NCBI GenBank assembly: GCA_937951485.1
Contig: CALEDJ010000038.1
Location: 70,190-134,189, forward strand
Direction of reading: 5' to 3'
DNA from: an uncultured bacterium
Lineage (GTDB): Bacteria > Hydrogenedentota > Hydrogenedentia > Hydrogenedentales > CAILVY01
DNA: 64,000 bases
Numbering within the stretch: the stretch's first letter is position 1; the number at the start of each line of letters is the position of its first letter. Below the pieces are notes generated by a model that was given only the letters and a program-made list of their open reading frames with translations, had not been told where the DNA came from and ran no database searches. The translations under genes and the position numbers were made by a program. Below, piece by piece: positions 17,013 to 32,610 of this stretch.

Positions 17013-19229
17013 GTGGACGACAGAACCCATTGGCTGACAAGAGTGCGTGTGAACACAAGCGAGCATCCAAAGAACGCCGAACCGCCAACCGGTCCGAAAG
17101 GATTTTGGGAGCGGCATGCCTGGCGGATACTCGTGCTTATCCTGCTGGCGGCGCTGGCATTGCGGCTGGCGTATCTGCGCGAAATCGTCGCGTCGCCGAC
17201 GTTCACATACGCCGTTTATGACCCGCAATACAACGACTATTGGGCGCGGGGGCTGGTGACGGACGACTGGACCGTGCCGGAAGGCGTGAATGATCCGGAG
17301 ATTCGCACGACGCCCTATGGGCGACCGCCGGGCTATCCGTTTTTCCTCGCGCTGGTCTATCGCGTCTTCGGACTGAATTACCTCGCGCCGCGTCTGGTGC
17401 AGATGTATCTGGGTCTGATCAGCGCCGTGCTGCTGTTTGTTTTGGCGCGCGGCATCTTCGGCGCGGCGACAGCGTTGCTCGCGGCAGTGTTTTTCTCATG
17501 CTACTGGGTGTTTATTTATTTCGAGGGCGTGCTCACCTATCCCTCCGTGGTGGTGTGCCTGCTGCTCCTTATCATGATCGCGATTTCGGCGTGGTTACGG
17601 CAGCCCCATGCCGGCCGCGCGGTCATCGTCGGGCTGCTGATGGGTCTGTTCGCGTTGTTCCGGCCCAATGGATTGCTCTACGTGCCGGTGTTGGTCGTCT
17701 GGATGGGGTGGACTTTGCGGCACCCGGACGCGCATTCCGGAGAATCCGTCAAACGGCCCGGCGTACAGCGGGCCTTCCGGCGGTCGGTCGCGGCGTTGGT
17801 GCTCGGGGTTGTCGTGCCGTTGGTGCCGGTGCTGGTGAGAAACTACGTCGTGGCCGGCGATTTCGTTTTCCTTTCTTCCTACGGCGGCTTGAATTTCTAT
17901 GTGGGCAATCACGCGGGGGCCGGCGGGGTGGAACCGCGGATTCCCGAACTGCCCGAACTGGCGGGCATCGAGAACTGGTCCTGTTTCGATTACCCGGCGA
18001 TAGTGCGCGGCCTTGCTGTAAATATGGGCAGGGAGCACATCCGTTTTTCCGAGGCCAACGCTTATTTCTACCGAAAAGCCCTTGATTTCATCCGCCACGA
18101 TCCCGTCGCATTCCTGAAATTGACCGCGAAAAAAGCGTTGCTGTTCTGGGGACCGCGGGAAATCACCAACGACACCGTCTTGGAATGGGACAAGCGGCAT
18201 TCGCCGCTGCTGCGTTGGCTGCCGGGATTCCCCTTCGCGCTGGGGACCTTTCTGTCCGGACTGTTGCTCTTTCTCCGTGACATGCGCATGGGCCGCACGC
18301 TTCCGCGCCCCGAATCACGCGCGACGGCTTGCGCCGCACTGTTGTTCATCGGCGCGTATTTCGTTTCCGTCGTGCCCTACTTCATCGCGGGGCGCTACCG
18401 CGTGCCGGTCATCCCGTTCATGCTGTTGTTCAGCGCGTACGGCGCGCAGCGCATCGGGGCGATGGCGGCGGCGCGACAGTGGCGACAATGCACGCTGTGG
18501 CTGGGCGCGGCGGGCGCGCTGGTGGGGGTGTCATTCTGGAATCCCATGGGCTACGCACCATCCGAGGCGACATGGCATTTTCATCAGGCGATGGCGTACG
18601 CCGCGCGCCAGGATTGCCCGGCGGCCGCCGAACACTACCGGGAATGCATCGCCCTTGACCCCGCCAACGCCGCCGCACACAACAATCTCGGACGCATCCA
18701 TTCGCGCCTGGGCGAACACGATGCCGCGCTGGCACTGTTTCAAGAGGCGCTGCGCCTGCGTCCGCAAGACCCGACCATCCGGAACAACCTCGGTTTTGAA
18801 TTGCAGCAACTTGGCCGCACGGCTGAGGCTGTGGAGGAGTATGAGGCGGCGCTGCGCGCCGCGCCCCGGGCATATCTGCCGCGCGCCAATCTCATCAACG
18901 CGCTGACGGCGCTGGGCCGCGCCGACGAGGCCCTGCGACACGCCGCCGTCCTGCTGGAAACATATGGCCACACCGCCGCCGCGCAGAACGCCTGCGGGTA
19001 TGCGTTCGCGCGCGCAGGCCGCGCCGAGGAGGCCGTGATGCGCTTCCGAGAAGCACTCCGCATCAACCCCCGCTTTGTCCCGGCGTGGGTCAACCTCGGC
19101 ATGGCGCTGGAAAGCCTGGGGCGACGCGAGGAAGCCGCAGACGCCTACACGCAGGTTCTTGATCTGGAACCCACAAACGCCCACGTGCAGGAACGTCTGC
19201 GCGTCCTGCGAGCACAACTATCACCTTAA
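17013..19229 (+). CDS. GT-C glycosyltransferase with C-terminal TPR repeats
   Basis: Predicted polytopic membrane glycosyltransferase of 738 residues using a lipid-linked sugar donor. The first 500 residues have about ten membrane segments. An early periplasmic loop has acidic residues (YDPQYNDYWARGL) and TTPYGRPPGYPFFLALVYRVFG, the pattern of the PMT/ArnT-like GT39 and GT83 group. Residues about 520-738 are six tetratricopeptide repeats. The start is uncertain: GTG at 17013 has only a weak AGAGAA upstream, and another GTG at 17043 is possible. It is transcribed away from the BNR gene and its stop overlaps that of the convergent VapBC remnant by four bases. Acceptor, possibly protein or glycan, is unknown. 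Confidence 0.78.
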   Translation: MDDRTHWLTRVRVNTSEHPKNAEPPTGPKGFWERHAWRILVLILLAALALRLAYLREIVASPTFTYAVYDPQYNDYWARGLVTDDWTVPEGVNDPEIRTTPYGRPPGYPFFLALVYRVFGLNYLAPRLVQMYLGLISAVLLFVLARGIFGAATALLAAVFFSCYWVFIYFEGVLTYPSVVVCLLLLIMIAISAWLRQPHAGRAVIVGLLMGLFALFRPNGLLYVPVLVVWMGWTLRHPDAHSGESVKRPGVQRAFRRSVAALVLGVVVPLVPVLVRNYVVAGDFVFLSSYGGLNFYVGNHAGAGGVEPRIPELPELAGIENWSCFDYPAIVRGLAVNMGREHIRFSEANAYFYRKALDFIRHDPVAFLKLTAKKALLFWGPREITNDTVLEWDKRHSPLLRWLPGFPFALGTFLSGLLLFLRDMRMGRTLPRPESRATACAALLFIGAYFVSVVPYFIAGRYRVPVIPFMLLFSAYGAQRIGAMAAARQWRQCTLWLGAAGALVGVSFWNPMGYAPSEATWHFHQAMAYAARQDCPAAAEHYRECIALDPANAAAHNNLGRIHSRLGEHDAALALFQEALRLRPQDPTIRNNLGFELQQLGRTAEAVEEYEAALRAAPRAYLPRANLINALTALGRADEALRHAAVLLETYGHTAAAQNACGYAFARAGRAEEAVMRFREALRINPRFVPAWVNLGMALESLGRREEAADAYTQVLDLEPTNAHVQERLRVLRAQLSP

Positions 19230-19510
19230 AGCCAGTTGGCGACTCTCAATCCCGCAACGTGCCGGAATTCCCGCTCGTTGTTGGTGACCAGCACTGCGCC
19301 CTCCGCCACGGCATGCGCCGCTCCCAGCAGGTCCATCGGCCCAATCACCCCGCCCGCGCGCTCCAGCGCCTCCCAGCCACGCTCCGGTGGAAAAATCATC
19401 ACCACGTCACGCACCTTGGTGATACACACCTCGTCCGAAGAAAACCGGTGTTCTTTGAGCAGGCGCACCGCCTGGCTGCCGCCATTGAGGAAGACCTTGG
19501 CTTTTTTCAC
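19226..19510 (-). pseudogene. In-frame VapB antitoxin / VapC toxin-tail chimera
   Basis: This 94-residue frame looks like a collapsed toxin-antitoxin locus. Residues 1-50 are a VapB-type AbrB/MazE antitoxin (KVFLNGGSQAVRLLKEHRF, then DEVCITKVRDVVMIFPP and GWEAL). Residues 54-94 are the C-terminal tail of a VapC PIN toxin (IGPMDLLGAAHAVAEGAVLVTNNEREF, ending GLRVANWL). The N-terminal two-thirds of the toxin, with its first Asp and Glu active-site residues, is missing, while the last acidic residue (D60) and TNN remain. A single in-frame deletion joining the two genes explains it. GTG at 19510 has AGGAG six bases upstream, so the chimera can still be translated. It cannot be an active nuclease; DNA binding by the antitoxin half is possible. 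Confidence 0.82.
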
Positions 19511-19606
19511 GGCACACTCCTGAAAGTATATACAAATTACACGGATCAAGATGTCAAGCCGGGACCTCTTGGAAAGCGCCTGCGCCGGGTGCTACCATGC
19601 TGCCGC

Positions 19607-20464
19607 ATGAACGGACACATTTATACAAGCGCCAACCAGCGGGAGTGGCTGCGGGTGCTTCCCGACCTCGTCCGGGCGCGGGAACTGCTGCGCGATCTGA
19701 TCTGGAAAGACCTTCGCGCGCGGTACCGCTATGCCGTGATGGGATTCCTGTGGGCTGTTCTGGAACCCCTGGCGTTCACGCTGATCCTGGCATTCGTGTT
19801 TTCGGTTCTGCTGGCGGACAAGGCGGCGTTCTTGCGCCCCGACAACGGGCCGCCGTTCACGACGATGCTCTTGAGCGGGTTGATCTTCTGGCAATTCACG
19901 GCGACGGCGCTGGCGAGCGCAACGTTTTCGCTGGTGATCAACCAGAATCTTGTGAAAAAGGTGCATTTCGCGCGGGAGACCGTCCCGTTGGCGACGGTAT
20001 GCGTGCCGCTGGTGAATCTTGGCGTGGGCTTCCTGTTGCTGCTGGGGGTGCATGTGCTGCTGGGCGGACGGCTGCATCCCGCACTGGTCTGGGTGCTGCC
20101 GGTGTTCGGCATCCAATTCTCCCTGACAGCGGGATTGGCGCTGATCTTTTCCAGCGCCCATGTGCACTTTCGCGACGTGGGGAACATGGTCAATGTCGCC
20201 ATTCTCTTCGGTTTCTACGCCTCGCCGGTGTTCTATCCGCTGGAGCGGGTGACCCAGTCCGGCGTGTTGCCGGCGTGGGCGGTGCATGCTTATCTGCTGA
20301 ATCCCATGGCGGGACTGCTGACCGCCTACCGGCAAATCCTGTTTGACGGCCATTTCCCGGACTGGACGCTCCTGCTGTGGCCCGCCATGTTGGCGGGGCT
20401 GGTGCTTGTCGGCGGATCATGGCTTTTCCGGCGCGCAGCGCCGACCTTTTCGGATTACCTGTAA
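19607..20464 (+). CDS. ABC-2 type polysaccharide export permease (Wzm/TagG family)
   Basis: Inner-membrane permease of 285 residues with six predicted membrane segments, the usual size for Wzm or TagG. The family patterns RELLRDLIWKDLRARYRYAVMGFLWAVLEPL at the N-terminus and FGFYASPVFYPLERV plus LNPMAGLLTAYRQILF near the end are clear. It would export a lipid-linked glycan with the ATPase encoded immediately downstream, whose ATG shares one base with this stop (TAATG). ATG at 19607 fits the family N-terminus but has no evident ribosome site. The open frame runs upstream to 19259 through antisense of the VapBC remnant and is not used. Confidence 0.88.
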   Translation: MNGHIYTSANQREWLRVLPDLVRARELLRDLIWKDLRARYRYAVMGFLWAVLEPLAFTLILAFVFSVLLADKAAFLRPDNGPPFTTMLLSGLIFWQFTATALASATFSLVINQNLVKKVHFARETVPLATVCVPLVNLGVGFLLLLGVHVLLGGRLHPALVWVLPVFGIQFSLTAGLALIFSSAHVHFRDVGNMVNVAILFGFYASPVFYPLERVTQSGVLPAWAVHAYLLNPMAGLLTAYRQILFDGHFPDWTLLLWPAMLAGLVLVGGSWLFRRAAPTFSDYL

Positions 20465-22548
20465 TGCCCATCATCGAAGTGGACCATGTGACCAAGGTGT
20501 TCCCGGCGCGGCGCGGCGCGCGCGACATCCGGGGACGCGGCGGTCTGGCCGACTGGATTCGCGGACGGAAGACGGAGACGTTCGAGGCGCTGAAAGATAT
20601 CAGCCTGTCGGTCGAGCGTGGGGAATCGCTGGGCATCATCGGTCGGAATGGCTCCGGAAAAAGCACCCTGCTCAGCCTCATCGCGGGGGTAACACTGCCC
20701 ACACGCGGCACGGTCACCGTTCGCGGGCGCGTCGCCTCGTTACTGGAACTGGGCGCCGGCTTTCATCCCATCCTGACCGGACGCGAGAATGTTTATCTGA
20801 ATGCCGGCCTGCTCGGCATGCGCCGCGCGCAAGTGGACGAAGTTTTTGACCGTATCGTGGCGTTTTCAGGCATCGCTGAATTCATTGATCAGCCGGTCGA
20901 AACCTACAGCAGCGGCATGTATGTGCGCATCGGTTTCGCCGTGGCCGCTCATGTCAACCCCGATGTTTTTCTCGTGGACGAGGTCCTGTCCGTCGGCGAC
21001 GAGGAATTCCAGCGCAAATGCCGCGCGCGCATCAGTGCGTTGCGCGAAGAAGGCAAGACCATCGTCTTCGTCTCGCATGATCTCGGTATTGTGAACACCC
21101 TCTGCGACCGGGTGGTGCTCCTGGACAAGGGCCGGATGGTTCTGCGCGAGAGCGCGCGCAAGACCATCAGTTTCTATCTGCGCCAGGTCGGCCGCGAACG
21201 CGGCGTGCACACCTTCGCCGCAGGTCCCCTGGAGGCCATCCTCTGCGAAGGCCGTATCTCACTCTTCCACAATCAGGAGGAACTCACCGCGCCGGATGGC
21301 TTCGCCATGTTTGTCCAATCGCTGGGGCGCCTGCACGCCTCGACGGAAGCGGATTGGGTTCTGACCCGGCGTGACCCTGACGGTTGCACCGCCGAGGGGC
21401 GCATGATGCGCCTGCCCCTCAAATACTTCTGGGACCTTCAACTCACCCCCGACCGTCTCACCTGGCACATCGCCGTGGAGTGCGAACGCGAAACGCCCAT
21501 GAACAGCCTCGACGTACGGCTCACCCTGACCACCGCGTTCACCCGTTGGATGTTGGGCGACTTGTCGGGGGTTTTCCCGGAAATCCGTCCCTCAGACACC
21601 CTCTGGAACATGCTCGTGTGGCCTTCGGACACGCCCCTCGACGATACCCGCGCCGCCATCCTGCCGGAGGAGGAAAACGAAGCCGTTCCCCGCCTGATCT
21701 TCCGCACCACCCCGCTGCGGCCGCATTTCAACCTCTACTGGGTGAACTCCGACTATGCCGCCTACTGCCGGATTCTGTTCATTCACACCCGATTCCCCGA
21801 CAAGGACGCCGGACTGCCTCCCGGTCGCCATGAACTGCTGCGTGTCGAGATTGAGCCGGCGGCGGGTCGGGACCTCCTGTGGCGACGCCTCTCCCCCGAC
21901 CGGACCATCAGCGCCGGAAAAGTGTCCGCTTGTTTCGAGCGTGGCTGGCTGAAACTGGCCTACGACGGCCGCGAAATCACCGCGCTTATCCATGTCTTTT
22001 CCTCAATGCTTGTACAACACCTCTGGAACGACAGCCACACATTGCATTGGGGCGAGGTGCAGAATGACGGCCGATGCCTGCGCGTCAGCGGCGAGTCGCG
22101 CCGTTTCCCGTTTTTCCAGCATTGGGAAGCGGAGGCGCGCGAAGACGGCATTTTTCTGCGCATATGGCTGGAGGCGGTCGAAGCGCTGGACGCCCAGGAA
22201 TACCAGGCATCCGTAGTGCTGTTACCGGAGTACAGGGCGTGGCGTTCCGACTACGAGGAAGGTGTGTTCCCGCCGTTTGACGCCAAAGCCGACAAATGGC
22301 GGCATCTGAATAAGATCTACCTCCCCGGCAAACGCCTCAGCGCCTTGAGTTCCACGTTACCATCTGTTACGCTTGAGGTTACAAACGACGCAATGCAGTT
22401 CCGAATGACCCCGATCAACACCCGGCGACAAGAAAACGCCCGGGTATTGCAGGCTTTGTGTTCCTCGGAATCGGGTGTCTTTCATTTCGATCGCGGGCGG
22501 CATCTCATCTTTGAAGGAATGATCCGGATAGCGCCCCCAGGGAGTTGA
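20464..22548 (+). CDS. ABC exporter ATPase (Wzt/TagH type) with long unknown C-terminal extension
   Basis: ATPase of 694 residues for the glycan exporter. The ATP-binding domain covers about 1-245: Walker A GRNGSGKST at 60-68, signature YSSGM at 148-152, Walker B VFLVDE at 168-173, and the switch His at 205 in VSHD. Residues about 246-694 are a beta-rich extension of some 440 residues that I do not recognise. Wzt proteins often add a glycan-binding domain of about 150 residues, so this is about three times longer. The segment near 510-600 (LHWGEVQNDG, SRRFPFFQHWE, LRIWLEAVEAL, VVLLPEYRAWRSDYEEGVFPPF) suggests a sugar-handling beta sandwich. The start shares one base with the permease stop, and the radical SAM gene follows at once. 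Confidence 0.85.
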   Translation: MPIIEVDHVTKVFPARRGARDIRGRGGLADWIRGRKTETFEALKDISLSVERGESLGIIGRNGSGKSTLLSLIAGVTLPTRGTVTVRGRVASLLELGAGFHPILTGRENVYLNAGLLGMRRAQVDEVFDRIVAFSGIAEFIDQPVETYSSGMYVRIGFAVAAHVNPDVFLVDEVLSVGDEEFQRKCRARISALREEGKTIVFVSHDLGIVNTLCDRVVLLDKGRMVLRESARKTISFYLRQVGRERGVHTFAAGPLEAILCEGRISLFHNQEELTAPDGFAMFVQSLGRLHASTEADWVLTRRDPDGCTAEGRMMRLPLKYFWDLQLTPDRLTWHIAVECERETPMNSLDVRLTLTTAFTRWMLGDLSGVFPEIRPSDTLWNMLVWPSDTPLDDTRAAILPEEENEAVPRLIFRTTPLRPHFNLYWVNSDYAAYCRILFIHTRFPDKDAGLPPGRHELLRVEIEPAAGRDLLWRRLSPDRTISAGKVSACFERGWLKLAYDGREITALIHVFSSMLVQHLWNDSHTLHWGEVQNDGRCLRVSGESRRFPFFQHWEAEAREDGIFLRIWLEAVEALDAQEYQASVVLLPEYRAWRSDYEEGVFPPFDAKADKWRHLNKIYLPGKRLSALSSTLPSVTLEVTNDAMQFRMTPINTRRQENARVLQALCSSESGVFHFDRGRHLIFEGMIRIAPPGS

Positions 22549-22553
22549 CGTTC

Positions 22554-23891
22554 ATGGACCCGGTAACCGCGGAAAACGCCGTGGGCGCGGATTGCCCGAA
22601 CCCCATCGCCGCAGCATCCGCTGCGCCCTTGCAAGTCGCGCATGGATGCCGGAAAACCACGCGGCGCGTGCTTACCCGGCGCGGGGTGATGTGGCTCGGC
22701 CAGACCTGCAATCTTCGCTGCTACTTCTGCTACTTCATTGACCGCATCGAGGACCACAAGCATCCCGAGCACGCGTTCATGACCCTCCAGAAAGCCAAGC
22801 AAATCTGCAAGGCGCTGCGCGAGTTCTACGGCAACACCGCCATTGACATCCAGGGCGGCGAGCCGACCATCCACAAAGAAATCCTGGAACTTATCCGCTA
22901 CTGCCGTGAAATCGGCCTGATTCCCACCCTCATCACCAATGGCCTGATCCTGGGAAAGCCCGGCAAACTGGAGGAATTCCGCGACGCGGGCATCCGCGAT
23001 TTCCTGGTCAGCCTCCATGGCATCGGCGAACTGCACAATGAAGTCGTGCGCGTGAAAGGCGCCTACGAGAAAATCATCGCGGCCATCGAGCGCATGCGCG
23101 CCCTCGACATCCCCTTTCGCTTCAACTGCACCATGTCCAAGCCGGTGATCCCCGTGCTGACGCAGGTCGCCCAGAAGGCGATTGATTACGGGGCGCTTGT
23201 CGTCAACTTCATCGCGTTCAACCCTTTCAGCGACCAATTCGGGCATCGCCGCGCCGACACCGTCGCCCGCTATGCCGATATCAAACCGGAACTCACCCGT
23301 GCGATGGACATGCTGGAGGCGGCGGGCATCGAGGTCAATGTGCGCTATCTCCCCCTGTGCATGGCCGAAGAGCGCCACCGCAAAAACTTCTTCAACTTCC
23401 AGCAACTTTCCTACGACATCCACGAATGGGATTACCAGAGTTGGCTCTGGACCATGATGATGACCCAGATGATGCGGGACGGCAACCCCTCGCCCCTGTT
23501 CCGACTCGGTCCCGGCGCAAGCCGCATCTACAAGGGCGGCGCGATGCGCATCCGCGACAACTACGAGAAACATCCGCTGCGGCAGGGAGTGAAATTCGCC
23601 GCGCAGCGCGCCCTGGCGCGCATCTATCAGGCGGCGCGCGGCATGCCCGCCGTCTATCGCGAGGAAGCCCGCCGCCGCGCCGAGCACGACTGCGGCTACA
23701 AATACGCGGAGGCTTGCCAATCGTGCGCGGCCCGGAACATCTGTGACGGATTCCACGGCGATTACGCCGAATTCTTCGGAACCGACGAGGCCCGGCCCAT
23801 CACCGGCATCGCGCCCATTGACGACCCGCTCCACTATATCCGCAACCAGGAAAAAGTCGTCTTTCCCGAGGATGCCTCCTGGGCGCTGTGA
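22554..23891 (+). CDS. Radical SAM enzyme in the glycan-export operon
   Basis: Predicted radical S-adenosylmethionine enzyme of 445 residues. The cluster motif is CNLRCYFC (C52, C56, C59), followed by IDIQGGEPT at about 97-105 for SAM binding and LITNG. A C-terminal cysteine group (C380, C388, C391, C397, then DGFHGDYAEFFG) is SPASM-like and may hold an auxiliary iron-sulfur cluster. ATG at 22554 has AGGGAG nine bases upstream; a TTG at 22545 is the alternative. It starts six bases after the ATPase stop, so it belongs to the same operon. Radical SAM proteins in such loci may modify sugars, lipids or peptides; the substrate is not evident. Confidence 0.88.
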   Translation: MDPVTAENAVGADCPNPIAAASAAPLQVAHGCRKTTRRVLTRRGVMWLGQTCNLRCYFCYFIDRIEDHKHPEHAFMTLQKAKQICKALREFYGNTAIDIQGGEPTIHKEILELIRYCREIGLIPTLITNGLILGKPGKLEEFRDAGIRDFLVSLHGIGELHNEVVRVKGAYEKIIAAIERMRALDIPFRFNCTMSKPVIPVLTQVAQKAIDYGALVVNFIAFNPFSDQFGHRRADTVARYADIKPELTRAMDMLEAAGIEVNVRYLPLCMAEERHRKNFFNFQQLSYDIHEWDYQSWLWTMMMTQMMRDGNPSPLFRLGPGASRIYKGGAMRIRDNYEKHPLRQGVKFAAQRALARIYQAARGMPAVYREEARRRAEHDCGYKYAEACQSCAARNICDGFHGDYAEFFGTDEARPITGIAPIDDPLHYIRNQEKVVFPEDASWAL

Positions 23892-24091
23892 ACGACACAG
23901 GACGCTATTTGGAAAGCGCATGAGGGAAGGGAGTCGCGGGGGGATTGGCGTATTGGGGGGCGGGTTGTTGCACAATAACAAGGCTCTTGCAGGACTTCCG
24001 TGGCATGGGCGTATCGCCCATAAAACACGGGCAGGATGCCCGTGCTCTATTGGATAACGGAAGGTTCTGCAAAAGCCTCTTATGGCAGGAC
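23892..24091. repeat. Paired-hairpin dispersed element inside the glycan operon
   Basis: This 200-bp spacer contains two adjacent perfect hairpins: ATGGGCG-TAT-CGCCCAT (24005-24021) and CACGGGCA-GGA-TGCCCGTG (24026-24044). Read in the upstream frame they give the spurious peptide MGVSPIKHGQDARAL, a string I have seen in many unrelated translated intergenic repeats of planctomycete-like genomes. The element interrupts the otherwise tightly packed operon and lies just before the start of the fusion gene. Confidence 0.75.
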
Positions 24092-26461
24092 ATGAACGCA
24101 TATTCTGAGATGGACCAACCCTTGCATCCCACGCGCGGGCTGATGGCCACGCACGACGCGCATGGCCGTCCTTTCGACCTGACAGACCTCAAGAAGTGGC
24201 TTCGACTGCATGCGGTCGTGTTCCACACGGAAAAGATAGACGTGCGCCCTGCAGGCGAAGGCGTCCGCCTGCTGCCCGCGCTGCTGGATTTCGCCCGTCA
24301 GAACGGCGTCCGGCTTTCCCTGCGCACCGATGGAACCCACGATCCCGTCATGCTGCCCGCATTGGCCGAGGCCGGGCTGCTGGACGTATTCTGCGCCATG
24401 CCGGCCTGCGACGGCGGCCTCATCGCCCGATGGGCGGCAGCCTGTGCGGACGCCGGGCTGGCGTTGCGGGTGCAAATCGGCGCGCCGCTGCCCGAACAAG
24501 AGAACATTGAAGCCGCCGTGAAACGTCTGGCCGGGGCCGCCGTGGTGAACATCACGCTCCATGATCCCTTTGCGCCCGCGCCGCCGTTGCGGGGCGAGAC
24601 CGCATCCGCCGCCCTGCGGAACATGAACGCGCTGGCGCGCGCGCTGGATGCGCGCGGCGTGGAAGTCAACCTCCTGCATGCGCCGTTTTGCCTGATCGCG
24701 GAAGAGAACCGGCCACATGTCGTCAACTCGGCGCAATTTTTCCTTGACCATCAGCACTATGACCGGCGCGCTTATGATTTTGCAGTCAACATCCACGCGC
24801 GCGGCCCAAGGCGGCTGGGCAAGGCCGTCGAAAACATGCTCAGCCGGGGAATGGCCGTGGACAGCCCTTTCCACCATAGCGTGCTCCCGTGGCTGCTGCA
24901 TCATCCCCTTCTTCTTATGCGTCTGTGGGTCTTGCATCAACTGACGCGGCATCTTCAGTTGCTGCGGGGTCCGCGCCCGCTGCCGGAGACCGTCGAGGAA
25001 TGGGAAGCCGCGATTGAAGCCCACCGCAGGCGCCACCGCAGGAACCTCGGCCCCGTCTGCGCCGCGTGCCGCTTCCAGCGCATCTGCGACCACGCCCCGG
25101 AGGAATTCCGCCGCCGATACCCCGACCTCCAGATCGCCGCCGTGCCGGGCGAAGAAGTGATATCGCCTTTCCATCTCATGCGGGGGCGCAAGCGTTATTA
25201 TGACGCAGTGGATGCCGCGCGCCGGGAACTGCCGAAAATCCAGGAGGCATTGGCCGAGGAAGCGCGCCGCATCACCCTGCGCGAAGCGCCCACCCGTGAA
25301 ATCACCGCCGATCACTACGAGATTGAGAACCATTACACCCACCACATGCCCGGCGCGGTGCGCTGGCTTTCCTTTCTCAACGTCGAACACTGCAGCACGC
25401 CGCTGGCGCGACTCACCCCGCCCTTCACCATGCAACTCACCTTCGGCGGCGGCATCGCCGGGCACATCGGCTTCAGTTTCGGGCGTCACGCCAAGATTCT
25501 CTGCCCGATGGTGGACTATTCGCACCGTCTCACGCTGCACGTGGATGAATTCGGGCGCTACGTTCTGCTGCGCGACGGCGTCCTCGTGCGTCCAACCGAG
25601 TTCGAGGGCGCGCGCTGCCTGCCTCCTCGCATCGGCGACAACGTCGAACCGCGCATCTGTATCCATAACATAGACGGGTTCCTCCTCACGCAGACCCTGC
25701 TGCTCTGGGAAGGCCGCCGCGACGCCGACGGCGCCCTCGCCGAACATGTCCCCGAAATGACAAGGATCAAATATTCCGTCGTCATCATCTGCACGCGTTA
25801 CACGCGGCGACTTCAGGCGACGCTCCTCGGGCTGGCCCATCAGCGCGGCTTCGACATGCGCGCCCTCGAAGTTGTCATCGGCTATGTGCCCGGCATTGAC
25901 GCTACCGACGACCTCATTGACAGCATGCGCCGCGCCTGCCCCGAACTGCGCATCGTCCGCATGCCCTTCTCCGAAGACCACGTCCGCGCCAAGGGATTCA
26001 TGATCAACGAGTCGCGGCGCATCGCCGCCGGCGACTGGATCGTCCTGCTCGACGCCGACATCATCCTCCCGCCCGATTTCTTCGTCCGCATGGAGACCCT
26101 TGGGGAAGACGCGCGCTTCGTCGCGCCCGACGGCCGGAAAATGCTCACGCCCGATGACACGGCCCGGGTGCTGCTCGGTCGGATTCGGCCTTGGGAATGC
26201 TTTGAGGAACTGGCTGCCGGCGCGGGCGAATACCGCTTCCGCGAGGCCGACCGCGTGCCCATCGGCTTCTGCCAGTGCGTGCGCCGGGATATTCTGGAAA
26301 AGATTCCCTACCATGAACGGGATCACTTCGAGGCGTCCGACTGGTGGTTCGGGCATTGCGTCATCAAGGAATACGGCCCCGAAACCCGACTCGAAGGCGT
26401 TGTCGTCCTCCATCTCGACCACGGCGGCAGCCAATGGTACGGCGCTTTCAAGCACATGTAA
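24092..26461 (+). CDS. Three-part protein: cluster-less radical-SAM-like half, middle domain, GT2 glycosyltransferase
   Basis: A 789-residue protein with three parts. Residues about 1-375 align by eye with the preceding radical SAM enzyme: RGVEVNLLHAPFCLIAEENRPHV matches its AGIEVN and PLCMAEERHRK region, and C323, C326 and C332 match its SPASM-like cysteines. The CxxxCxxC motif is absent, so the half cannot hold the radical SAM cluster. Residues about 395-555 are a beta-rich domain I do not recognise. Residues about 558-789 are a GT-A fold family 2 glycosyltransferase: YSVVIICTRYTRRLQATLLGL, then VLLDADIILP with D654 and D656. ATG at 24092 is preferred because everything upstream is a dispersed repeat; only AGG lies close, and ATGs at 24110 and 24143 are alternatives. 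Possibly a scaffolded glycan-tailoring enzyme. Confidence 0.8.
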   Translation: MNAYSEMDQPLHPTRGLMATHDAHGRPFDLTDLKKWLRLHAVVFHTEKIDVRPAGEGVRLLPALLDFARQNGVRLSLRTDGTHDPVMLPALAEAGLLDVFCAMPACDGGLIARWAAACADAGLALRVQIGAPLPEQENIEAAVKRLAGAAVVNITLHDPFAPAPPLRGETASAALRNMNALARALDARGVEVNLLHAPFCLIAEENRPHVVNSAQFFLDHQHYDRRAYDFAVNIHARGPRRLGKAVENMLSRGMAVDSPFHHSVLPWLLHHPLLLMRLWVLHQLTRHLQLLRGPRPLPETVEEWEAAIEAHRRRHRRNLGPVCAACRFQRICDHAPEEFRRRYPDLQIAAVPGEEVISPFHLMRGRKRYYDAVDAARRELPKIQEALAEEARRITLREAPTREITADHYEIENHYTHHMPGAVRWLSFLNVEHCSTPLARLTPPFTMQLTFGGGIAGHIGFSFGRHAKILCPMVDYSHRLTLHVDEFGRYVLLRDGVLVRPTEFEGARCLPPRIGDNVEPRICIHNIDGFLLTQTLLLWEGRRDADGALAEHVPEMTRIKYSVVIICTRYTRRLQATLLGLAHQRGFDMRALEVVIGYVPGIDATDDLIDSMRRACPELRIVRMPFSEDHVRAKGFMINESRRIAAGDWIVLLDADIILPPDFFVRMETLGEDARFVAPDGRKMLTPDDTARVLLGRIRPWECFEELAAGAGEYRFREADRVPIGFCQCVRRDILEKIPYHERDHFEASDWWFGHCVIKEYGPETRLEGVVVLHLDHGGSQWYGAFKHM

Positions 26462-29292: not shown

Positions 29293-32200
29293 TCAATGCT
29301 CCGCCGAATCTTCACCGGCGTTGTGCGTCGCTGTCGGCGCTTCCGCGCGGGTCTGTTCCATCATGACGCGCGCCAGGGCTTCCCTGGTGCCTTCCGCGTC
29401 CGGGTCCAGTTCCAACGCGCGTTCATAAGCGACGCGCGCGGCGTCCCAATCGCCGCGTCGCTCAAGGGCAAGCCCGAAGCAGAACCAGGCCAGCGCGCGT
29501 TCCGGGTGCGCCTTGACAGCCCGCTGCCACTCCGCCACAAGCCCCTCCAGATCGCCCTGTCGCACATACATGTCCGACAATTGTTCATAGGCGCCGTAGT
29601 CGTGCGGCACCGCTTCGATGACACGGCGGCAGATTGCCAGGGCTTCGGTGATATTTCCTTCGTGGGCATGCAGCATCGCCAATCCCATCCAGATTTCGGA
29701 CCGGCCCGGCGCCAGCGATTCCGCCCGATCAAACGCCGCCCGGGCTTCGGCTGCTCTGCCTGTCGCAAACAATGCGTACCCCTCCGCCATCACTAAGCGC
29801 CACTGCACGTCTTTTGCTGCTTCGGGACGTTGCGTATAACTATCCGGTTGTTCGCGAATATCGGCATGTAATCGAGTCATTTCGGGAAACTTCAATAACT
29901 CCTCACGCAACTGCAGTGCGCTTTCCCGCGCGGCGCCGATATCGGACTGCGCCTGACGCCGTATGATGTCCACGCGAATCGCCGCCGCGCATGTCATCAG
30001 GAAGGGGTTTGCAAAGTCTTTCCCCTGCTCGTTCGCGATCCATTGCAGCATCGCCGCGGGGTCCAGAAATTGCTGGGCGGGCGTGAGAATTACCGAGAGT
30101 ACAAAGTCCAGGCTGCCTCGGCTCGCGCAGTAGGCGTTGGCGCATGCCTCCATTGTTCCCGAAAGATCGCCGTGGCGGGCGCGCGCCAACGCGAGATGCG
30201 CCTGCGGCAGGGGATGGAACGGCAATTCCCCGGCAAGCACTTCCCACTCCCGCAGTAGAAGTTCTTTGTCATCATGGTCGGTGTAAAGATTCGTCAGTTG
30301 TCGGCACAGCGCCACGGAATCCGGTTGTTTTCGGATTGCGCGGCGCAGCGGCATGGCCTGGCGCAGGAGCGCGCGCCGGTGTTCAAAAAACGCCATGCTT
30401 CCGCGGTAGAAGGAATCATGAATGTCCGAATCTTGTGTTAGGCCCAGGCGTTTGAGGCGACGGCGGCGTTGTTCCGCGCTGTGCTGCAAATACCGTTCAG
30501 GCGCGACAGGCGTCCCGCCGGCCGTCCAGCGATAGATCGTCAGCAGAAGTTCGCCTGAATGCTCCGATTCAATTTCCAGTACCAATTCGGCGCCTGTTTC
30601 ATGCGGGGGCGGCGCGAGCGCCGCCGCGCAGGTCGCCAGAGATTCGGACAGATTCTCTTCAAGGGGGAGGGTTTCCAACAGCGCTGCGTCAATGCCGGGT
30701 GACTGAACGCTTGCGGTCACTTGACCATGGATACGTGACTGCGGCGGCAGCGCAACCAGCAGCAGAAGCGGATGCGCATCCGGCAGCGGTCTGGAAAGGC
30801 GGACAACGCCGGGGACCAACGGAATCCGCCACGACAGACGCGAAAGTTCGTCCCACCGATGCCATCCAGCGGTGATTTCAGAGCCGTCATCTTGACGCCA
30901 AGGCTCGGCATGCCAGCGGGTAAGCAACTCCGGGGCATCGGCGGGCATTCGATACAAGTCCGCCGCCGGCGCAACAAACCCGTAGGACAAGACAAACAAG
31001 GGGAGCGTCGCCCGGTCGTCCCGCACAAGGAAGACTTCACCAATCTGACCGAAACTGTCAGTCCCGAATGATATCGTCGCCATGAAATGCTTCGTGTGCG
31101 CATGGTACGCCTCATGAAGAAAAGGAATATCATATAGAGCCGTACTGAAAAGGGAATGAATGGAATAGGTCGGCTGCATGGCCAGTAATTCCGGCGTATT
31201 GGCCACGCCCATCGTGAGGAATGCCTGAATGTGCGTATTGGGTCGGTGCAGCGCCGGATGTGTCAGGCCGAATTGCTCGATCACATAAGCCCGCTCGAGC
31301 ATCCATGCAGGCATGCCGCCATTTTCCACGATAACTTTGTCGTCGGGATAATAGAAATCTTCCGGACAAAGATGCTTATACGCAGGGATGAAATTGTCGT
31401 GCGCCATATCTCTTGATTGTACGAGATGCCGGGTCCGGTAGTCGGGCTGGTGGAGAAAATCCGCGCTTCTTTGGGCCAACGCCCCGACGTTCATGTTGTA
31501 GAGTGCAGTCCCCACGCACACGCCTACCGCCGCCTCCTGCAGGCAGAAGCGCCGGGGAAGCGCGGCGCACCCCAGCAAAGAGCCAAAAGCGAGCAAAGTG
31601 TAATAGGGAGATAGCAGTCGAAATCCCAGCCAGTCCCCGCCGTTCTTTATCACCAAGGCCGCATTGAAGCATAGCAGGACAAGCATCAAGCCGGCCAATG
31701 ATGCGTTTTGCCGCCGCATGGCGCCTGTCGCGAGCAACGCCAGCAAGGGAAGCAAGGGCTGATAGTAGTTTCGAACAAGCGCCACGCCGGCCCGGGTGGC
31801 CACATGGTCATTGCCTTCCATTATTTTCGACGCCAGGGCTTTGGCCCGTACCGTGCTGGGGATGACATCGCCGAAATATAGCGCGCGGAACAATGTAATG
31901 CCGCCCACCGCAAATGCCGCCATCGCAGCCACGAACAGGAATCCATTCAGCGATATGCGCGCGCGGCGGAATTCCCAGAATGTCCAGGCGGCGATAAAAC
32001 CCGCGATCACAGCGCCTTCCGGACGGTTCGCCGTGAAGAGCGCCGCCGCAACGCCCAGCACAAGCGGCGCACGCCGCACCGCGCCGTACAGCATCAACGC
32101 GCAGCAAAAAAATACCAGCGACCCTTCGAGCATGTTGCCGGAATCCGTCAGGAATGCCGTAAACAGCACGGTCATCGCCAAGGGCAGCCGGCTGAGAAAG

Positions 32201-32610
32201 GGTCGATCCGCAAACTGTTTTAGCGACGCGGCGCGTACAAGCCACGCGCCGAAAAGCAGGCAAAGCATGGTCATTATGTGGGCCGCGAAACGCATGCTGA
32301 AGCCCGCGCGATAGAGTCCCGCCAAACACAGGGTCCATAGCAGGTTGCTGATGCCTTCGTGGTACTCCCCCGCGTTGTACGTCAGTCCGTCGCCCCACGC
32401 CAGGTTGCGCGCATATCGGAAACTGATGCAGGCATCATCTACAAGACCAAAATAGATAACGGATTGATAGGCCAGAAATGCAAAAAGAAGTATGTCAAAG
32501 CCCAGGACAAACACGCGGAAATTGAAAGAGGGGGATGCACTCTTGACCCAGGAACCCGCCACGTGTGTCTCTCCGGTCCGTTCGCTTGAACTCGTTGATG
32601 GTTCCCGCAC
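29293..32610 (-). CDS. GT-C glycosyltransferase-like membrane protein with TPR-rich C-terminus
   Basis: Very large polytopic protein of 1105 residues. The first 390 or so residues hold about ten membrane segments. The loop FGLVDDACISFRYARNLAWGDGLTYNAGEYHEGISNLLWT is the acidic donor-site pattern of arabinofuranosyltransferase-like (AftB-type) GT-C enzymes. A large soluble region (about 400-720) follows, then tetratricopeptide repeats (about 760-1090, such as EIWMGLAMLHAHEGNITEALAICRRVIEAVPHDYGAYEQLSDMYVRQGD). It is the second GT-C plus TPR protein in the window. The start is uncertain; the first 30 residues are Ser/Thr-rich and may be upstream of the true start. The sugar and acceptor are not known. 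Confidence 0.72.
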   Translation of the reverse strand: MREPSTSSSERTGETHVAGSWVKSASPSFNFRVFVLGFDILLFAFLAYQSVIYFGLVDDACISFRYARNLAWGDGLTYNAGEYHEGISNLLWTLCLAGLYRAGFSMRFAAHIMTMLCLLFGAWLVRAASLKQFADRPFLSRLPLAMTVLFTAFLTDSGNMLEGSLVFFCCALMLYGAVRRAPLVLGVAAALFTANRPEGAVIAGFIAAWTFWEFRRARISLNGFLFVAAMAAFAVGGITLFRALYFGDVIPSTVRAKALASKIMEGNDHVATRAGVALVRNYYQPLLPLLALLATGAMRRQNASLAGLMLVLLCFNAALVIKNGGDWLGFRLLSPYYTLLAFGSLLGCAALPRRFCLQEAAVGVCVGTALYNMNVGALAQRSADFLHQPDYRTRHLVQSRDMAHDNFIPAYKHLCPEDFYYPDDKVIVENGGMPAWMLERAYVIEQFGLTHPALHRPNTHIQAFLTMGVANTPELLAMQPTYSIHSLFSTALYDIPFLHEAYHAHTKHFMATISFGTDSFGQIGEVFLVRDDRATLPLFVLSYGFVAPAADLYRMPADAPELLTRWHAEPWRQDDGSEITAGWHRWDELSRLSWRIPLVPGVVRLSRPLPDAHPLLLLVALPPQSRIHGQVTASVQSPGIDAALLETLPLEENLSESLATCAAALAPPPHETGAELVLEIESEHSGELLLTIYRWTAGGTPVAPERYLQHSAEQRRRRLKRLGLTQDSDIHDSFYRGSMAFFEHRRALLRQAMPLRRAIRKQPDSVALCRQLTNLYTDHDDKELLLREWEVLAGELPFHPLPQAHLALARARHGDLSGTMEACANAYCASRGSLDFVLSVILTPAQQFLDPAAMLQWIANEQGKDFANPFLMTCAAAIRVDIIRRQAQSDIGAARESALQLREELLKFPEMTRLHADIREQPDSYTQRPEAAKDVQWRLVMAEGYALFATGRAAEARAAFDRAESLAPGRSEIWMGLAMLHAHEGNITEALAICRRVIEAVPHDYGAYEQLSDMYVRQGDLEGLVAEWQRAVKAHPERALAWFCFGLALERRGDWDAARVAYERALELDPDAEGTREALARVMMEQTRAEAPTATHNAGEDSAEH

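Follow-up and report, generated by a model that had tools for sequence, protein, structure and literature searches.

A conserved Wzm/Wzt locus with a radical SAM enzyme and a pseudo-radical SAM/glycosyltransferase fusion in Candidatus Hydrogenedentota

Members of Candidatus Hydrogenedentota carry a real, conserved and, judging from the open-access literature that was searched, apparently undescribed variant of ABC-dependent glycan assembly, in which a Wzm/Wzt exporter is encoded together with a radical SAM (rSAM) enzyme and with a protein that fuses a pseudo-rSAM domain, a beta domain and a GT2 glycosyltransferase. What is directly established for this locus is its gene order and domain make-up, the homologies and conservation of its proteins, and its recurrence across the phylum. 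Its function is best read, with a probability of about 0.5, as that of a surface-glycan ABC module in which the rSAM enzyme modifies a glycan or donor in the cytosol and Wzm/Wzt exports the product. The locus was found in a 64,000-nucleotide stretch of DNA, the window, from an uncultured bacterium whose genomic relatives are Candidatus Hydrogenedentota MAGs. Four co-directional genes fill positions 19607-26461 of the plus strand, and the features of the locus, including one possible further member, are as follows.

17013..19229, plus strand: PMT_2 membrane glycosyltransferase-like protein with TPRs (PF13231 and TPR matches), possible member of the locus
19607..20464, plus strand: Wzm-type ABC-2 permease (P0001, 285 aa; PF01061, E 1.1e-13; NCBIfam Wzm/RfbD, E 3e-16, under its cut-off)
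20464..22548, plus strand: Wzt-type ATPase with a long C-terminal extension (P0002, 694 aa; PF00005, E 3e-20; match to Aquifex aeolicus Wzt)
21205..21861, plus strand: Wzt beta domain copy 1 (residues 248-466; beta-rich in the AlphaFold model, hhalign to copy 2)
21904..22533, plus strand: Wzt beta domain copy 2 (residues 481-690; AlphaFold, hhalign to copy 1)
22554..23891, plus strand: rSAM enzyme (P0003, 445 aa; PF04055, E 5.5e-22; CxxxCxxC at 22707-22730)
23981..24090, plus strand: dispersed repeat (10 further partial matches in the genome)
24092..26461, plus strand: pseudo-rSAM/beta/GT2 fusion (P0004, 789 aa; homologue alignment, AlphaFold model)
24092..25171, plus strand: pseudo-rSAM domain (residues 1-360; hhalign to the rSAM enzyme, BLASTP, alternating beta/alpha model)
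25214..25747, plus strand: middle beta domain of the fusion (residues 375-552; model, no Pfam family)
25757..26461, plus strand: GT2 (GT-A) domain of the fusion (PF13641, E 6.6e-11; structure match, conservation)

The Wzm stop codon and the Wzt start codon (ATG 20464) share one base and five bases lie between the Wzt stop and the rSAM start (ATG 22554), which bears out an earlier note on this DNA that had described four consecutive plus-strand genes, the first three tightly spaced. The fusion had first been taken to begin at 23945. This TTG is disfavoured and probably wrong, as a repeat lies between it and ATG 24092 and the homologues start later: their alignments open at about residue 7 of the protein starting at ATG 24092, and positions 23981-24090 (about 110 bases) recur as 10 further partial matches of 73-86% identity interspersed in the genome, the repeat ending one base ahead of the start codon at 24092. 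The fusion thus most likely begins near ATG 24092, and because its start has been moved there the gap between the rSAM gene and the fusion gene is about 200 bases. A scan for promoters and terminators gave no signal exceeding chance. Relatives of the protein encoded at 17013-19229 lie near Wzm/Wzt at three other sampled loci (L054, L058, L086). This protein and the one encoded at 29296-32610 are both large, with TPRs at the C-terminus, and a small PIN-domain-like ORF with a borderline Pfam score occupies the minus strand upstream of the operon (19229-19549).

The arrangement is typical of the phylum. Among 68 phylum genomes the fusion, counted as present at E at or below 1e-100, was found in 63 and the rSAM enzyme in 49 (one of them a contig-edge fragment), with both in 48, the fusion alone in 15, the rSAM enzyme alone in one and neither in four; the fusion architecture is therefore present in nearly every sampled member. 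The rSAM proteins of the phylum form one clade in the tree (100/100), and a genome scan yielded 39 loci of this clade, a few of which bear other submitter labels. Three of these loci, which had no exporter gene and whose upstream sequence was shorter than 1.5 kb, were left out, and in 30 of the 36 informative loci that remain Wzm and/or Wzt adjoin the rSAM gene, mostly directly upstream. The fusion directly follows the rSAM gene in 14 of the 32 loci with enough downstream sequence. In two genomes (G027 and G035) the genes have been re-sorted as Wzm with rSAM and Wzt with fusion (L087/L086 and L105/L104), which argues for a shared function. No Wzm/Wzt gene lies inside 6 kb at 28 of 46 sampled fusion loci, partly owing to contig ends, and counting rSAM genes in the neighbourhood of fusions by regex gives too low a number, some Pfam-positive rSAM/SPASM genes being missed. 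The operon is more than a chance local arrangement, since its gene order is found repeatedly in the phylum and the homology of the pseudo-rSAM domain is real. Three loci from MAGs titled Nitrospiraceae, Rhodothermaeota and Omnitrophota (L125, L140, L148) have rSAM proteins that fall within the Hydrogenedentota clade, reflecting mislabelled bins or transfer. Tandem duplicates of the fusion gene occur at L080, L088 and L099, and of the rSAM gene at L089 and L090.

The rSAM enzyme belongs to the radical SAM superfamily, C52xxxC56xxC59 and GGEPT being invariant across 29 homologues, as are other core residues, and its catalytic competence is inferred from these motifs. The same homologues also share an invariant quartet of cysteines outside these motifs, C269, C388, C391 and C397 (of which C397 lies within CDGFHxDY), and these look like the ligands of one auxiliary cluster. 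In its CxxxCxxC core, GGEP motif and extra C-terminal cysteines P0003 resembles auxiliary-cluster rSAM enzymes of the MoaA/PqqE/AhbD-like kind, from which it differs in a C-x2-C-x5-C-DGFH motif and an upstream PxC. The SPASM domain PF13186 gave no match at E up to 1, the cysteine spacing being different, and no named NCBIfam model attains its cut-off. The closest PDB chains, PqqE (6c8v), Tes (7tol) and SkfB (6efn), match the core alone, and none is a close relative.

The N-terminal domain of the fusion is a true homologue of this enzyme: residues 1-360 align with the rSAM profile from position 77 on (hhalign probability 99.4, E 3.2e-21, 322 columns), and BLASTP of P0003 against P0004 gives E 1e-7. 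It lacks the signature of an active rSAM enzyme, as the alignment starts past the cluster loop, the CxxxCxxC loop being deleted, and GGEPT is lost and unconserved. The paralogue had been called cluster-less, which stands for the SAM cluster motif; not so for the auxiliary site, as C200, C323, C326 and C332 of P0004 are equivalent to C269, C388, C391 and C397 of the rSAM enzyme. Because these four cysteines are retained, the domain may hold an auxiliary Fe-S cluster. Of 47 fusions, 38 retain the quartet; the others have lost it wholly or largely as a set, a second fusion clade being without it. In a 16-row alignment (A3) that contains a Myxococcales protein, all four cysteines are invariant. 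The AlphaFold model (mean pLDDT 81.6) has an N-domain of alternating beta/alpha structure, a middle beta domain without a Pfam family and a GT-A domain. The assignment of the latter to GT2 follows from PF13641, matched in all 47 homologues, and from D654-A-D656 and H774-x-D776-H777, invariant in the same 47; its GT-A domain matches AvpGT (VIA Z 22.8, rmsd 2.3, 195 aligned), and in whole-fusion structure searches (PDB, VIA) the match lists are filled by the GT2 domain. AvpGT, TarS, SpsA, chondroitin polymerase and GlfT2 share with it the GT-A fold, the DxD motif and the conserved HxDH, whereas here the GT2 domain shares its polypeptide with a pseudo-rSAM domain and a beta domain of no assigned family, an architecture absent from Pfam and NCBIfam. 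By its title, the haloarchaeal pseudo-SAM/SPASM family TIGR04347 is a named precedent for an rSAM relative without SAM-cluster function. Searched up to E 1, it has no match in the fusion, and we know of no GT2 fusion or exporter link for it.

The exporter is a glycan ABC exporter by its ABC-2 permease (PF01061) and ATPase (PF00005), and the best structural match of the Wzt nucleotide-binding domain (NBD) is A. aeolicus Wzt (VIA Z 29.2, rmsd 2.7, 236 aligned, 42% identity). The Wzt extension of about 450 residues consists of two tandem copies of one beta domain of about 215 residues (hhalign E 2e-37; AlphaFold) and matches no Pfam family, and the structural match list of whole Wzt (VIA) holds mostly ATPase-domain hits. 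Outside the phylum, related Wzt proteins carry a single copy (L152, L153, L154), the beta domain accompanying the rSAM enzyme in those MAGs too. A relationship between the Wzt beta domains and the middle beta domain of the fusion is unsupported by hhalign (E 0.09 and 0.6). At equal NBD identity the C-domains are 35-46% identical between rSAM-bearing families and 29-35% identical in pairs with an rSAM-lacking genome, and thus 6-10 points more alike in the former, in a comparison of related genomes with non-independent points and with G013 as an exception; this pattern agrees with a Wzt that reads an rSAM-dependent feature and is suggestive only. As 15 genomes without the rSAM enzyme keep the fusion and at least 11 rSAM-lacking genomes keep the long Wzt, the rSAM enzyme is inessential to export. 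WaaL/Wzy-type proteins (PF04932) are also encoded in the genome, making periplasmic ligation or polymerisation possible.

Beyond the phylum, relatives of the rSAM enzyme with 40-55% identity are spread over many phyla and reach cultured organisms such as Oleispirillum naphthae, in which the chemistry of the family is therefore testable. Of 43 non-phylum rSAM loci, 22 contain a GT2 gene from a single cluster, usually as the neighbour of the rSAM gene. At some of the loci the rSAM gene belongs to an island that includes MptE-like (PF01973), FkbM-methyltransferase or NAD-epimerase genes. Association of the rSAM gene with Wzm/Wzt, which the earlier note had wished to see tabulated, thus holds within the phylum (30 of 36 loci) and mostly fails outside it, where about 43 loci include just 5 or 6 with Wzm/Wzt nearby. 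In a search of 40 rSAM-bearing genomes for the fusion, a single genome outside the clade of the phylum was positive (L154, a Myxococcales MAG), besides G100 from a small phylum. The genes are ordered rSAM-fusion-Wzm-Wzt in the former and Wzm-Wzt-rSAM-fusion in the latter (L092), and this reappearance together with the fusion, added to the phylum-wide recurrence, supports the proposal that the locus is a dedicated module for glycan export to which the rSAM enzyme is linked. Six Desulfovibrionaceae-like loci (L157, L161, L167, L171, L172, L181) encode an rSAM orthologue and a short radical-SAM-like protein beside GT2 genes; most loci of this kind have a second rSAM-family gene, and several have MptE-like (PF01973) genes.

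With ABC-dependent O-antigen systems, whether those with WbdD or other terminators or that of A. aeolicus, the locus shares Wzm/Wzt, an extra C-terminal domain of Wzt, a linked glycan-modifying enzyme and a GT2 enzyme. It differs in that the linked modifier is a radical SAM protein instead of a methyltransferase, kinase or Kdo transferase, and in the two tandem beta domains of Wzt. Known O-antigen exporters rely on methyl, phosphate or Kdo caps, and a radical enzyme working within an export operon would, if true, amount to a novel type of glycan tailoring. The open-access search found no paper on an rSAM enzyme in a Wzm/Wzt operon or on Hydrogenedentota glycans, and to our knowledge the phylum has no well-characterised isolate. 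In known systems a chemically modified chain end is recognised by a Wzt domain before export (PMC9445017), WbdD being an example of an enzyme that installs such a terminal modification (PMC3482155).

In the favoured reading, glycosyltransferases, the GT2 domain of the fusion included, would assemble a lipid-linked glycan on the cytosolic side, and the rSAM enzyme, using SAM and its CxxxCxxC [4Fe-4S] cluster, would radically modify this glycan or its sugar donor, with epimerisation, deoxygenation and C-C/C-O chemistry as candidate reactions. Since the pseudo-rSAM barrel has kept its fold and a probable Fe-S site while losing the usual SAM binding, substrate binding and presentation is its most likely role; it would take the same kind of substrate and hand it to the GT2 domain. 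The fusion would extend or cap the modified glycan. By analogy with O-antigen Wzt, the duplicated beta domains are putative ligand binders whose most likely task is to check the chain, finished or modified, before export. A more specific version, in which the rSAM enzyme writes an export signal at the chain end, the fusion recognises it through a SAM-free Fe-S barrel and the Wzt beta domains read it, is improbable.

The earlier note had supposed that the rSAM enzyme and the fusion act together on one substrate, which is so far a conjecture; an obligate pairing found no support, given the fusions without an rSAM enzyme (15 of 68 genomes), adjacency in only 14 of 32 informative loci, rare co-occurrence outside the phylum and little signal of co-evolution with rSAM presence, the pseudo-rSAM domain being barely more alike between rSAM-bearing genomes at matched GT2 identity. 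It is accordingly quite possible, if held tentatively, that they are independent parts of one surface-glycan repertoire, the pseudo-rSAM domain being a fossil docking or stability barrel for the GT2 domain. Those same observations favour this reading, as do the lack of a fusion in nearly all non-phylum rSAM carriers and the loss of the cysteine quartet in the second fusion clade, yet 48 of the 49 rSAM-bearing phylum genomes also encode the fusion, the four genes cluster together in two distant lineages (L092, L154) and most fusions retain the quartet. The enzyme might instead act early, making an unusual nucleotide-sugar donor for GT2 enzymes, with an exporter that moves the product without reading the modification. 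Outside the phylum it does adjoin GT2 genes far oftener than exporters, and NAD-epimerase or FkbM-methyltransferase genes are sometimes nearby, but within the phylum the tight link is to Wzm/Wzt rather than to sugar-nucleotide genes and Wzt C-domain conservation tracks rSAM presence, which leaves this reading somewhat unlikely.

It is very unlikely that the rSAM enzyme matures a peptide or protein that is later glycosylated, in a RiPP-like or flagellin-like manner: although MptE-like proteins are encoded in the same islands as some relatives and the distant HxsC peptide-maturase model matches P0003 (E 2.4e-19, far under its cut-off), there is no SPASM match, a conserved small precursor gene was not noticed in an unsystematic look at the loci, and the context in the phylum is glycan export. 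A galactan system with a GlfT2-like polymerase and Wzm/Wzt, as for mycobacterial arabinogalactan, was rejected as scarcely credible. The top-ranked Foldseek matches of the fusion are GlfT2 structures (E 2e-12, yet TM-score only 0.19) and the NCBIfam galactan Wzm model is weakly matched, but UDP-galactopyranose mutase (PF03275) is missing from all 68 phylum genomes, while control genomes were positive.

The genome that contains the window also encodes a second module (L071:4527-12741, G000:C17), with three genes of one rSAM/SPASM cluster, two of them Pfam-confirmed, a fusion paralogue without the cysteine quartet, a GT4 gene and a conserved protein of about 165 aa that has no significant Pfam match.
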